Source of the DNA: Salegentibacter sp. R32
GTDB lineage: Bacteria > Bacteroidota > Bacteroidia > Flavobacteriales > Flavobacteriaceae
Assembly (NCBI RefSeq): GCF_008692195.1
Contig: NZ_RXOM01000063.1
Location: forward strand, 14,909 to 78,908
DNA: 64,000 bases
Reading direction: 5' to 3'
A program made the position numbers and the translations under genes. The notes under the pieces are model-generated. The model saw only the letters and a list, made by a program, of their open reading frames with translations, was not told the origin of the DNA and searched no databases. Shown one piece after another: positions 45,445 through 51,028 of the stretch. Position 1 is the stretch's first letter. Each line of letters starts with the position of its first letter.

Positions 45445-45559
45445 CTTCTTCGTTTCTTCTAAAGTTAAGAATTTCGGTTTACCAAGCTTCTAAAGAGAAT
45501 CTTAATCTTTTTCGACAATGCTAAATTCATTACCTTTGAAGACCGCACAAATCACGATC

Positions 45560-47704
45560 ATGAAAAAAATCTTACTCCCACTTATTGCACTCGCATTCGT
45601 TGCTTGTGACGATTCTAAAGAAAAAGAAGAACCCTCTCAAAAAGAAATTGCCTTGAAATACCCAGAAACTAAAAAAGTAGATACCGTCAACACTTATTTT
45701 GGAACCGAAGTAAAAGATCCTTATCGCTGGTTGGAAGACGACAGAAGTGAAGAAACTGAAGCTTGGGTGAAAAAACAAAACGAAGTCACCTTCGATTATC
45801 TCCATAAAATCCCTTACCGCGACTCCCTCAAAAACCGACTATCTAAACTTTGGAATTACGAAAAAGTTGGCGCACCATACAAAGAAGGTGATTACACCTA
45901 CTTTAGTAAAAATGATGGTTTACAAAATCAATATGTAATTTATCGTTACAAAACCGGTGAAGATCCTTCTACAGCAGAAGTATTTTTAGACCCGAATTCA
46001 TTTAGTGAAGACGGAACTACGTCTTTAGGTGGAATGAGTTTTTCGGAAGACGGAAAAACTTTAGCCTATTCTATTTCTGAAGGAGGAAGCGATTGGCGAA
46101 AAGTGCTCGTGATGAATGTGGAAACCAAAGAAATTATTGAAGATACTTTAGTCGATATTAAATTTAGCGGAATGTCTTGGAAGGGCAACGAAGGTTTTTT
46201 CTATTCCAGCTACGACAAACCAAAAGGAAGCGAACTTTCCGCCAAGACAGACCAACATAAACTCTATTACCATCAATTGGGAACTTCACAAAAAGAAGAT
46301 GAATTAATTTTTGGGGATACTGAAGAAGAAAAACATCGCTACGTGGGCGGAAACGTGACGGAAGACAATCGATATTTATTAATTACTGCCAGTACTTCAA
46401 CCTCCGGGAACAAGTTGTTTTTAAAGGATTTATCAAAACCGAATAGCAAACTCAAAACCATTATTGGTGATACCGAAACCGATACTTATGTGATCGAAAA
46501 TGAAGACAGCAAACTATTTTTGGTTACCAACAAAAACGCACCGAACAAAAAAATTGTAACCGTAGATGCAACTAACCCAAATCCTGAAAATTGGGAAGAT
46601 TTTATTCCGGAGACAGAAAATGTATTGACTCCATCAACTGGTGGCGGTTATTTCTTTGCTGAATATATGGAAGATGCCGTTTCTGCGATAAAGCAATACG
46701 ATTACGAAGGGAAATTAGTTCGGGAAGTAGAACTTCCGGGAATTGGTAGCGTTGGCGGATTTGGTACTAAAAAGGAAGAAAAAGAACTGTATTATTCCTT
46801 TACCAATTACATCACGCCGGGAAGTATTTATAAATACAATATTGAAAACGGAACTTCTGAGCTATACCGCCAACCGAAAATCGATTTTAATTCAGAAGAA
46901 TATGAAAGTAAGCAAGTTTTCTATACTTCTAAAGACGGCACCAAAGTCCCGATGATTATCACTCACAAAAAAGGAATCGAATTGAATGGCAAAAACCCAA
47001 CCATTCTGTACGGTTATGGAGGTTTCAACATTAGCTTAACTCCGGCTTTTAGCATCACCAATGCAGTTTGGATGGAACAAGGTGGAATCTATGCCGTGCC
47101 TAATCTTCGTGGTGGTGGCGAATACGGAAAAGAATGGCACGATGCCGGAACTAAAATGAAAAAACAAAACGTTTTTGACGATTTTATCGCTGCCGCAGAA
47201 TACTTAATTGAAAACAACTACACTTCTAGCGATTACTTGGCGATTCGTGGAGGTTCCAATGGCGGATTGTTAGTGGGTGCTACGATGACGCAACGTCCTC
47301 ACTTGATGAAAGTCGCTTTACCCGCGGTTGGAGTTTTAGATATGTTGCGTTACCACACGTTTACCGCGGGAGCCGGTTGGGCTTACGATTATGGTACCGC
47401 CGAAGATTCCAAGGAAATGTTTGAATATTTACACAATTATTCTCCGGTACACAATGTAAAAGAAGGCATTGAATACCCGGCTACTCTAATTACTACAGGT
47501 GATCATGACGACCGTGTAGTTCCCGCCCACAGTTTTAAATTTGCCGCAGAACTCCAAGCCAAACAAACCGGAAATAACCCCGTACTCATTAGAATTGAGA
47601 CCAATGCCGGTCATGGCGCGGGAACTCCCGTAAGTAAAACCATCGAACAATATGCCGATATTTTTGGTTTTACCCTATGGAATATGGGGTTTGAGGAGTT
47701 GTAA
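45560..47704 (+). CDS. Prolyl oligopeptidase family (S9A) lipoprotein
   Basis: The product has 714 residues from the ATG at 45560, which gives a lipoprotein signal ([17 protein letters not shown]); an ATG at 45518 is less likely. An N-terminal beta-propeller (about 60-430) is followed by an alpha/beta-hydrolase domain with the catalytic triad: Ser in [11 protein letters not shown], Asp in [13 protein letters not shown] and His in NAGHGAG. It cleaves proline-containing peptides outside the cytoplasm. The gene is single and intact. Confidence 0.92.
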
Positions 47705-47780
47705 TGCAATTAAAAAAATAAAGCAACCTGAATTAAGATATTTCAACGAATGTTTTGACAATAAATAGTTTTAAAAATAA

Positions 47781-47905
47781 GTCTGTTCGAGTGATTTACT
47801 GAAGTAAAACGGAGGTAAATTGTATCGAGAACACCTCATCTAACTTCTCGATACAATTGCTTTTAGCTATCGCTATAAGCAATCACTCGAAGTGACTGTA
47901 ATCAT
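47781..47905. repeat. Intergenic repeat, family B (copy 1)
   Basis: It contains a perfect 13-bp inverted repeat ATTGTATCGAGAA (47819-47831) / TTCTCGATACAAT (47845-47857), starts with gtctgttcgagtg and ends with tcactcgaagtga. The inverted copy at 48225-48346 and the degenerate copy at 50915-51028 keep this order. It lies immediately downstream of a GIY-YIG gene. Confidence 0.75.
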
Positions 47906-47907
47906 CA

Positions 47908-48201
47908 TTACTTAAATTTTTTCTTTGCCAAATTGGGAAGTTGATCATATTCAGAATTAATGAGTGCTTCCTTTTTAGCTTTTGACCATTTTTTGATTTT
48001 CTTTTCAAAATCTATCGCCATTCCTGAATTGGAAAATGTGGTGTAATATTTTAGTTCCACAGGACGTCGTCTATAGGTATAACTATCTTTATGAAAACCG
48101 GTTTGATGCTGTGACAACCTTTCTTCAAGATTTGAAGTTATTCCTGTATAGTATGTGTTATCAGAGCATTTTAAAATATATACGTAATATACTTTCATCA
48201 T
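47908..48201 (-). CDS. GIY-YIG endonuclease-domain protein
   Basis: A 97-residue single-domain protein of the UPF0213/YhbQ type. YYVYILKCSDNTYYTGIT carries the GIY-YIG-like strands, with ERLSQHQTG and the catalytic-Glu helix (AIDFEKKIKKWS) following. It has a basic end (LAKKKFK). Such small proteins have nuclease activity or DNA-repair roles in the few cases studied. Both flanks are occupied by family B repeats in opposite orientation, close to its start and stop, which is unusual. Confidence 0.85.
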   Translation of the reverse strand: MMKVYYVYILKCSDNTYYTGITSNLEERLSQHQTGFHKDSYTYRRRPVELKYYTTFSNSGMAIDFEKKIKKWSKAKKEALINSEYDQLPNLAKKKFK

Positions 48202-48224
48202 ATCTCATTTTAAATCTAACCTAA

Positions 48225-48346
48225 TCACTTGGAGTAATTCCCGGAATGCTGATAGGGTGAATTGTATCGAGGAGTGTTTTCTCAGGTTCTCGATACAGTT
48301 TTAATTCCGTTACACTCCATTAAAACCACTGGAACAGACTTATTAG
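48225..48346. repeat. Intergenic repeat, family B (copy 2, inverted)
   Basis: The reverse complement aligns with 47781-47905: gtctgttccagtgg, then aactgtatcgagaacc, then ctcgatacaatt, ending aagtgatt. It lies upstream of the GIY-YIG gene and mirrors copy 1. It carries its own TGTATCGAG/CTCGATACA inverted repeat. Confidence 0.75.
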
Positions 48347-48365: not shown

Positions 48366-49268
48366 CTAACCCTTCTCAATAAACTTTAATTCCCGTTCTG
48401 AAGTTGCGATTTCCATCAAGGCGTGATAAATGTAATTAGCAACTTTTACTTCACCGGAAAGGTTGAGGTGTTCAATCGTATCGGTGGGTTGGTGATAGTG
48501 GTCGTGACCACCGGTATGAATCCCTAATACTGAAATCCCTTTTTGATAAAATGAAACATGATCAGAACCGCCTACTGAACCTGCGTGAACAACAGGATTT
48601 ATGTGATTAGGTTCGCCTAAGCTTTTCATGAGTTCAACACCCTTCGGAAAAGTTCCCGCACCGCCCATATACACATGATTTTCCTCATTTAAATGTCCCA
48701 CCATATCCATATTGATCATCAACTTGATCTGCTCGATGGGAACAATTGGGTTTTCAATAAAAAACTGACTACCCAACAATCCTTGTTCTTCCGCTCCGAA
48801 CGCAATAAAAATCACGCTTCGTTTGAGATCTTTTTCGTGTGCTTTTACTTTTTCAGCAATTTCCAACAAAGCGGCAACTCCGCTGGCATTATCATCGGCT
48901 CCGTGATAAATGCTATCACCTTTCATCCCTAAATGATCATAATGTGCGCCTAACACAATCACTTCATTTTTTAGGATAGAATCTTTCCCTTGCATTAAGC
49001 CCAACACATTGTAAGTTTCCACTTTTGAGCTATCTTTTCTCATCACGGCTTCGAACTCCTGAGTCAAGACAGAAATTTGATTTTTTCTAAAATCATTCAC
49101 TAAATAATCCACTACACTATCATTTTCCGGTATCCCGGGATAGCGACCTTTTAATTTATCGGCTGTTAAATATTCAATATGATTTTTTAATTCTTGCTCG
49201 GTAATTGCTTCTTGCGCAAAAACAGTAACACTTGAAATAAGAAGCAAGAAAAAGAGAAAAGATTTCAT
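48366..49268 (-). CDS. M28-family aminopeptidase, exported
   Basis: The product has 300 residues, with a signal peptide ending VTVFAQ. M28 zinc motifs: GAHYDHLG (His), YHGADDNASG (bridging Asp), AFGAEEQGLLGS (catalytic Glu-Glu), MDMVGH (Asp) and GGHDHYHQPTDT (last His). It probably trims N-terminal residues of peptides outside the cytoplasm. It is single, and divergent from the ABC ATPase gene. Confidence 0.92.
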   Translation of the reverse strand: MKSFLFFLLLISSVTVFAQEAITEQELKNHIEYLTADKLKGRYPGIPENDSVVDYLVNDFRKNQISVLTQEFEAVMRKDSSKVETYNVLGLMQGKDSILKNEVIVLGAHYDHLGMKGDSIYHGADDNASGVAALLEIAEKVKAHEKDLKRSVIFIAFGAEEQGLLGSQFFIENPIVPIEQIKLMINMDMVGHLNEENHVYMGGAGTFPKGVELMKSLGEPNHINPVVHAGSVGGSDHVSFYQKGISVLGIHTGGHDHYHQPTDTIEHLNLSGEVKVANYIYHALMEIATSERELKFIEKG

Positions 49269-50914: not shown

Positions 50915-51028
50915 AATGAAAAGTCTGTTCGGTTAGGATAAGAAAAATTATATTGAGAGCTTAAACGCAGTTGCTTCTCGATATGATTTTATTTTCGTCA
51001 CGCATCATTAAAGTCACTCGAAATGATT
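50915..51028. repeat. Intergenic repeat, family B (copy 3, degenerate)
   Basis: It reads agtctgttcgg, then tattgagagc, then cttctcgatatga, then gtcactcgaaatga, in the same order and orientation as 47781-47905 but with several mismatches. Confidence 0.6.

Follow-up and report, generated by a model that had tools for sequence, protein, structure and literature searches.

In the 64,000-nucleotide stretch of Salegentibacter sp. R32 analysed here, called the window below, a gene for a 97-residue GIY-YIG nuclease lies between two inverted copies of a palindromic repeat whose ends are hairpins with a GTC tag. Based on the comparisons in this work, we propose, with a probability of roughly 0.6, that the locus belongs to a mobile repeat system of the repetitive extragenic palindrome (REP) type, in which a small GIY-YIG nuclease takes the place of a REP-associated tyrosine transposase (RAYT) of the HUH kind as cognate enzyme. 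The proposal is carried by the bracketing of the nuclease gene, the covariation of the repeat stems, the match between nuclease clade and repeat type, and the differences in presence and absence among relatives, all of which are directly observed.

The bracketing extends well beyond the window. Among the best 80 of 380 related loci, taken from named genomes, a repeat arm occurs within 200 bp upstream of the gene in 78, downstream in 79 and on both sides in 77, against a background of 0.031 arms per 200 bp in sequence of these loci lying over 1.5 kb away. In 54 of the 80 loci the closest arms on the two sides are turned towards each other, so that the gene takes up the loop of a palindrome, and the remaining 26 lack this arrangement. 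A motif-free test compared the upstream flank with the reverse complement of the downstream flank, with the 99% level of shuffled sequences as cut-off. The 236 loci submitted to it reduced to 211 unique ones, and 162 window-type loci (those whose gene finds its best match among four queries in the window protein), 14 cas-type loci and 29 loci of a sister clade were used. The test was positive in 102/162 window-type loci versus 2/194 control stretches, in 8/14 cas-type loci versus 0/25 controls, and in 6/29 sister-clade loci versus 1/55 controls. Repeats are thus strongly enriched near GIY-YIG genes of this family, a point on which the sequence-only reading had made its proposal depend, and what it noticed at one locus is confirmed as real and general.

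At the level of whole genomes, a relative of the nuclease at E ≤ 1e-20 occurs in 102 of 299 genomes of the family, with up to four window-type matches per genome, and the gene is therefore patchily distributed. Where a close nuclease was present (E below 1e-39), 23 of 25 genomes had the repeat palindrome, compared with 73 of the 274 others (Fisher p about 1e-10, only indicative because genomes are not independent), and the association stayed at p < 1e-8 at all six E thresholds tried. Tandem arrays also contain the same repeat unit with and without the nuclease gene. At three loci (L142, L121 and L135) the element stands in such arrays, with periods of about 133 and 174–180 nt, up to about 15 copies and the nuclease gene in a unit.

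The window locus and the anatomy of an end

The source genome is a 4.08-Mb draft, and the window protein is the product of a 97-aa GIY-YIG open reading frame (ORF). The features of the locus, in window coordinates, are as follows.

47781–47896, + strand: repeat copy 1, a complete double element with a GTC-tagged GTTC half-hairpin, TATCGAGAA/TTCTCGATA arms with a 13-nt loop, and a CTTC half-hairpin ending ..GTGAC
47781–47833, + strand: left half-element of copy 1, tag GTC, stem GTTC/GAAC around GAG..CGA; folded alone, z = −0.2 versus shuffles
47843–47896, − strand: right half-element of copy 1, GTCA tag, stem CTTC/GAAG; folded alone, z = −3.9
47908–48201, − strand: GIY-YIG nuclease gene, 97 aa, single domain (ORF list and Pfam)
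about 48225–48339, − strand: repeat copy 2, inverted and partly decayed, with its inner CTTC-type end mutated
about 50923–51026, + strand: repeat copy 3, degenerate, with no adjacent nuclease gene
45518–47704, + strand: upstream neighbour, a prolyl oligopeptidase (S9) that borders the empty site of congeners on one side
48366–49268, − strand: downstream neighbour, an M28 peptidase, the other flank of that empty site

Copy 1, whose limits were read from the sequence (GTC tag at 47781, final GAC ending at 47896), is separated from the gene by 11 bp and copy 2 by 23 bp, which agrees with the sequence-only reading, where the repeats were put within 25 bp on either side and in opposite orientation; the outer ends (47776–47797 and 48323–48344) are inverted over 22 nt with 91% complementarity. 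The third, degenerate copy noted at 50915 was likewise recovered, at the slightly different position listed above. A single repeat of the window is a double hairpin of about 116 bp, every repeat consists of two half-elements in inverted orientation, and copy 2 mirrors copy 1, the GTTC-stem ends of both lying outermost. Folded as a whole, copy 1 reaches −27.4 kcal/mol (z = −7.6 versus shuffled DNA, with 0/200 shuffles reaching as good a value).

The half-element can be written as GTC(A)-N4-GAG ... CGA-N4', and its stem covaries. Of 354 pattern matches close to the genes, which are not independent and come in many cases from arrays, 259 show full pairing between N4 and N4', versus a mean of 98.5 and a maximum of 122 when partners were shuffled 1000 times; the stems are GTTC/GAAC (122), CTTC/GAAG (105), CATC/GATG (19), GATC/GATC (8) and GGTC/GACC (2). 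A general hairpin was found in 305/353 segments of 260 bp beside the genes versus 17/224 segments about 1 kb away. The GTC tag, which was not part of the hairpin search pattern, is conserved at 96% (G), 97% (T) and 95% (C) in 401 halves of the TC class and at 71%, 75% and 74% in 95 halves of the CT class; in window copy 1 its context reads AGTCT. A model of the half-element as a stem with tandem G.A pairs was dropped, as folding gave a competing TCGA/TCGA pairing for the TTC class.

The window protein matches Pfam PF01541 (GIY-YIG) at E = 2.2e-17 over residues 5–77 of 97, with no other domain, and it matches no NCBIfam family. In 244 aligned proteins, conservation rounds to 100%, gaps not counted, at Tyr8, Tyr18, Gly20, Arg28, His32 and Glu66, of which Tyr8, Tyr18, Arg28 and Glu66 are presumably the catalytic residues of the GIY-YIG family. 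Values of dN/dS (the ratio of nonsynonymous to synonymous substitution rates), obtained for two of six pairs, were 0.10 for the comparison with the relative Mesonia oceanica and 0.055 for that with M. mobilis, with dS saturated (1.6) in the latter pair. Judged from these alignments, the nuclease appears to be under purifying selection with its catalytic residues conserved. The closest solved structures by sequence are the UPF0213 proteins 1zg2 and 1ywl.

The repeat is also dispersed through the source genome, which holds 16 exact TATCGAGA..TCTCGATA palindromes versus none for the reversed control pattern, 15 of them on contigs without a window-type nuclease. Of the 14 that were read with their flanks, 8 carry a tag at each outer end as judged by a simple pattern, and at least one, at C1:275406, has the palindrome but none of the element's other features. 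Rfam gave no match at gathering score at the six loci searched.

Further GIY-YIG genes of the same genome are accompanied by repeats. At C14:14911-18129 (L001), the GIY-YIG domain lies within a 573-codon open frame with GAGCGTAGTCGAAG-type repeats before and after it. At C12:63063-66263 (L006), an 86-aa GIY-YIG gene overlaps the end of a tRNA-Arg gene, and on its other side part of the tRNA sequence is repeated together with a GCCTGCCGGCAGGC palindrome. Outside the window at C61:160740-163958 (L002), a GIY-YIG gene and a GGCTGAGTG..TATCGAAGCC repeat array are situated between cas1 and cas2, whose products Cas1 and Cas2 were confirmed by Pfam, and this locus adjoins an apparent CRISPR (clustered regularly interspaced short palindromic repeat) array.

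Agreement of nuclease and repeat, and occupancy of equivalent sites

Nuclease type and repeat type go together. On a FastTree tree of 173 nucleases, 163 of which could be labelled by stem class (TC 128 loci, CT 35), the class changes 4 times, versus at least 27 and on average 32 changes in 300 label shuffles. The dispersed copies across whole genomes are a better test of this matching than the tree. Hairpins were counted across 18 genomes, both in total and as dispersed copies lying over 1 kb from any listed nuclease. In G056, where CCTC stems predominate beside the nuclease, the totals are 22 CCTC and 1 GGTC hairpins, of which 18 and 0 are dispersed. The GGTC-labelled genomes G211, G212, G106 and G120 have 13, 20, 15 and 2 GGTC and 0, 1, 2 and 0 CCTC hairpins in total; in the first three of them 9, 8 and 10 GGTC and 0, 1 and 2 CCTC hairpins are dispersed. 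Both kinds occur in comparable numbers (CCTC/GGTC) in G131 (37/28), G266 (9/5), G163 (5/5), G207 (4/4), G294 (4/5) and G277 (5/3). Few hairpins were found in G258 (1/4), G254 (1/2), G209 (2/1) and G000 (3/2), and G223 and G117 match neither pattern. G248, chosen as a control, has 5 and 21 of the two kinds and holds a two-ended element.

Such elements were looked for in six genomes. In G163, G207, G294, G248 and G266 two different hairpins enclose a nuclease gene with a gap of 326–344 nt, and in the sixth, G277, no pair of these hairpins encloses a nuclease. Gene-less hairpin pairs (n = 14) were found in five of the six, with gaps of only 15–29 nt and the tags outermost in 11 of 14. The same two-ended element therefore exists with and without the nuclease gene.

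Occupancy of equivalent sites differs among relatives. The window site was compared with 60 relatives; of 14 relative regions, G488, G490, G493, G495, G498 and G499 were compared by BLAST only and are left uninterpreted. In three congeners (L324–L326, three Mesonia species) the neighbouring genes are joined by a short spacer holding neither repeat nor nuclease, in a further congener (L327) the site carries a decayed repeat and no nuclease, and L328 and L330 have both repeats and nuclease next to the same oligopeptidase gene. At a site in Sphingobium, three aligned records have the arrangement REP–nuclease–REP; in two, one REP with a tag at each end stands without the gene, and in two more both this REP and the gene are absent, one of these last holding an unrelated palindrome. 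The single REP of one record (L339) is exactly the product expected from a deletion between two equal arms. The unit that the sequence-only reading likened to a small mobile one is thus not fixed, so that its second condition for refutation did not come true either, and gain and loss cannot be told apart everywhere. Separately, next to a nuclease gene of Sinorhizobium meliloti Ak57 (L338) lies a REP dimer that holds an apparent leftover, the C-terminal end, of another such gene and is likely a deletion derivative.

The sister clade and CGTC-tagged repeats

A second GIY-YIG gene of the source genome (L003), a member of the sister clade, is bracketed by ATTCCTGC..GCAGGAAT palindromes, and some of its relatives are bracketed by hairpins fitting the description of CGTC-tagged REPs; at L172, TTGTCATTCCTGCGCAGGCAGGAATCCA precedes the gene and its inverse follows. 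The available part of Di Nocera et al. (2013; PMC3733652) describes the CGTC-tagged REP superfamily, which includes the Neisseria dRS3 repeats, Rickettsia RPE-4/6 and repeats of rhizobia and sphingomonads, as apparently without a dedicated transposase, and reports no tyrosine transposase gene flanked by CGTC sequences. In a plasmid set, 16 of 33 records were read, and GTC-tagged hairpins with outermost tags bracket the GIY-YIG gene in 9 of the 16 loci, namely in Azospirillum, Shinella (two), Rhizobium CIAT894, Neorhizobium, Novosphingobium, Sphingobium (two) and Aeromonas. Photobacterium has a tagged hairpin on one side, Planktothrix and Spirosoma have other repeats, and the tagged palindrome pair was not found at S. 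meliloti L284, Sinorhizobium L281 and R. tumorigenes L287.

Within 200 bp of the gene versus beyond 450 bp, the density of GTC-tagged hairpins is 4.4 versus 0.87 per kb in the plasmid set (16 loci), 1.81 versus 0.12 in flavobacteria (29 loci) and 2.67 versus 0.19 phylum-wide (29 loci). In Bacteroidota, Alphaproteobacteria, Neisseria and Aeromonas, part of the sister clade has CGTC-type REPs at its flanks. A strict CGTC test (GTC plus stem) gave 0.28 per kb near versus 0.15 per kb far at 163 window-type loci and nothing near cas-type genes (0/14 loci), a low yield explained by hairpins that are longer or differently built at these loci, and one that speaks against lumping the types together.

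Two plasmid loci show the company such genes keep. On Azospirillum lipoferum plasmid AZO_p3 (L279) a unit of CGTC-type REPs and nuclease lies between sufB and sufC, and on Planktothrix agardhii plasmid p1 (L280) a GIY-YIG gene with GTCATTCTGAG repeat flanks is found between an MmeI-type restriction gene and drmA of DISARM.

Proposed mechanism, alternative explanations and known systems

We propose that the system is built from one kind of part, the GTC-tagged hairpin as an end. Two such ends in inverted orientation would constitute the gene-less element found dispersed, and with the nuclease gene between them they would constitute the gene-bearing copy. The nuclease would most likely recognise the hairpin when it is extruded or single-stranded, as in a cruciform or at a replication fork, and could nick beside the unpaired GTC tag. 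Host repair or recombination may then copy or rejoin the hairpin-ended segment elsewhere or adjacent to it, and rejoining next to itself could also yield the tandem arrays. The recognition and nicking steps are modelled on the RAYT enzymes, for which cleavage of the GTAG motif of single-stranded REPs is reported in the available part of PMC3733652. The likening of the locus to a RAYT/REP unit in the sequence-only reading is supported by the anatomy, the dispersed gene-less copies and the match of repeat and nuclease type, and the part in which the nuclease cuts and moves the repeats is retained here as a putative role.

Several observations weigh against this proposal. GIY-YIG enzymes hydrolyse DNA and, to our knowledge, do not join strands, so that re-insertion would need host functions, and this is the weakest step of the mechanism. 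No target-site duplication or exact insertion junction was established in the site comparisons, the empty sites being divergent or scarred. Agreement on the tree may come partly from co-inheritance of linked DNA, and linked inheritance alone could give that result; in G120 the sole two matching hairpins are the nuclease flanks, with 0 dispersed GGTC copies, and this genome adds nothing to the dispersed-copy test because it has none more than 1 kb from the nuclease. In the window, only one of four half-elements folded singly is distinct (the right half of copy 1, z = −3.9), the left half of copy 1 being at z = −0.2 and the halves of copy 2 at −0.5 and +0.7; copy 2 looks decayed, since neither of its halves folds better than shuffles. 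Of the 197 sampled genomes in which no nuclease matched at E ≤ 1e-20, 13 have at least three palindromes, and the palindrome is missing from 2/25 close-nuclease genomes at E below 1e-39 and from 6/34 at E below 1e-36. In the sister clade, strict tag-and-stem bracketing was found in 7/29 flavobacterial and 5/29 phylum-wide Bacteroidota loci, most being unbracketed, and in Neisseria gonorrhoeae tagged dRS3-like hairpins stand on both sides of the gene with the upstream one pointing the other way.

The main rival explanation, which we hold to be possible but doubtful, is that the GIY-YIG gene is itself a mobile homing parasite that inserts into existing REP dimers as targets, while the repeats spread otherwise. 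GIY-YIG homing endonucleases are a known kind of enzyme, and the gene-less dimers with the same two ends, the congener (G489) with a repeat and no gene at the window site, the two Sphingobium plasmids with a single REP and no gene, and several Flavobacterium loci that hold the element at what reads as the same site would all be accounted for. However, at the three Mesonia sites and the two Sphingobium plasmids with neither repeat nor gene, it is whole units that differ, the repeats of the source genome were found to have no Y1-type gene next to them, and the 26 loci in which the gene lies outside a facing-arm loop also count against homing.

That the nuclease would instead serve genome maintenance, resolving or trimming the repeat hairpins and cruciforms and kept adjacent by selection with no mobilisation, is in our view improbable. 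GIY-YIG enzymes of other families do act on branched DNA, and the closest structures are UPF0213 proteins of the GIY-YIG kind, but the patchy presence in 102/299 genomes, the several matches within one genome and the varied loci fit selfish DNA better, and nearly all palindromes of the source genome (15/16) sit on contigs without such a nuclease. Still less probable is that a RAYT elsewhere moves the repeats and the GIY-YIG gene is a passenger. The available part of an HUH survey (PMC6006769) does describe Bacteroidetes RAYTs with atypical structures, those of subclass 2.6 being flanked by structures repeated elsewhere in the genome, and the source genome has three Y1_Tnp matches; however, none of these three loci, examined in this genome only, has a repeat arm in its 1.5-kb flanks, compared with 77/80 GIY-YIG loci armed on both sides within 200 bp, and no tyrosine transposase gene flanked by CGTC sequences is reported in the available text of PMC3733652. 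A RAYT was therefore rejected as the driver. Least credible of all is a chance grouping of ordinary terminators around a small gene; the empty sites of congeners do carry what read as ordinary terminators at this position, but the arm, motif-free and general hairpin tests refute it by their enrichment, and the stem covariation also stands against it.

A REP-type system with a GIY-YIG enzyme, if correct, offers a testable candidate enzyme for the CGTC-tagged repeats that were described without a dedicated transposase, and links several Bacteroidota repeat families by the single formula of a GTC tag plus hairpin. We give even chances to the broader idea that small GIY-YIG nucleases may be the missing cognate enzymes of the whole GTC-tagged REP superfamily in several phyla, and that together they may form a class of mobile DNA that moves by hydrolytic nicking of tagged hairpins with host repair and evolved separately from HUH/RAYT systems. 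The statement of the sequence-only reading that no element of this form is described agrees with the literature matches listed, in whose titles, abstract starts and term counts no link of GIY-YIG genes with REP repeats was found, subscription papers and preprints being thinly covered; six literal repeat sequences were not found in the papers searched, and in the available part of RepRanger (PMC12306157, 2025) CGTC occurs only in a reference title and GIY-YIG not at all.

Among known systems, the nuclease belongs by domain match and by its conserved Tyr, Tyr, Arg and Glu to the GIY-YIG superfamily (PF01541). It resembles the homing endonucleases of the I-TevI and I-BmoI kind in that a GIY-YIG domain is tied to the mobility of its own gene, and differs from them, which are marked by a separate C-terminal DNA-binding module and a defined empty-allele target, in being a single domain of about 97 aa with no such module, with no intron or intein seen and with repeats as its ends. 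Similar to miniature inverted-repeat transposable elements, the short gene-less elements have inverted ends and look derived from a gene-bearing copy; however, the unit holds no DDE-type transposase, its ends are tagged hairpins and no target duplication was established. The CGTC-tagged superfamily, as given in the available part of PMC3733652, shares the GTC tag at one end outside the stem and the frequent dimers in opposite orientation. Some sister-clade REPs fit that description wholly (stem beginning AT, 4–5-nt loop, CCA-like tail) and others in part, some beginning AC or GC, whereas the window repeat is longer and two-part, with a 4-bp stem around GAG..CGA plus a second hairpin, and does not follow the stem rule of the four families published there (8–9-bp stem beginning AT, loop of 4–5, CCA tail).

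The REPtrons, in which REPs and REPINs (REP doublets forming hairpins) accompany a RAYT (TnpA-REP), differ in that here the enzyme is GIY-YIG (PF01541 only) with no Y1/HUH transposase between the repeats, the tag is GTC(A) and not an unpaired GTAG at the hairpin foot, the gene is often in the dimer loop and some loci form long tandem arrays. In both, inverted tagged hairpins surround a small nuclease-type gene, with repeats on both sides of the enzyme gene (here in 77/80 loci), gene-less dimers are dispersed through the genome, the repeat type tracks the enzyme and the tag lies at the hairpin foot. The finding as a whole points to at least two origins of REP-type systems, with nucleases that are unrelated to each other.
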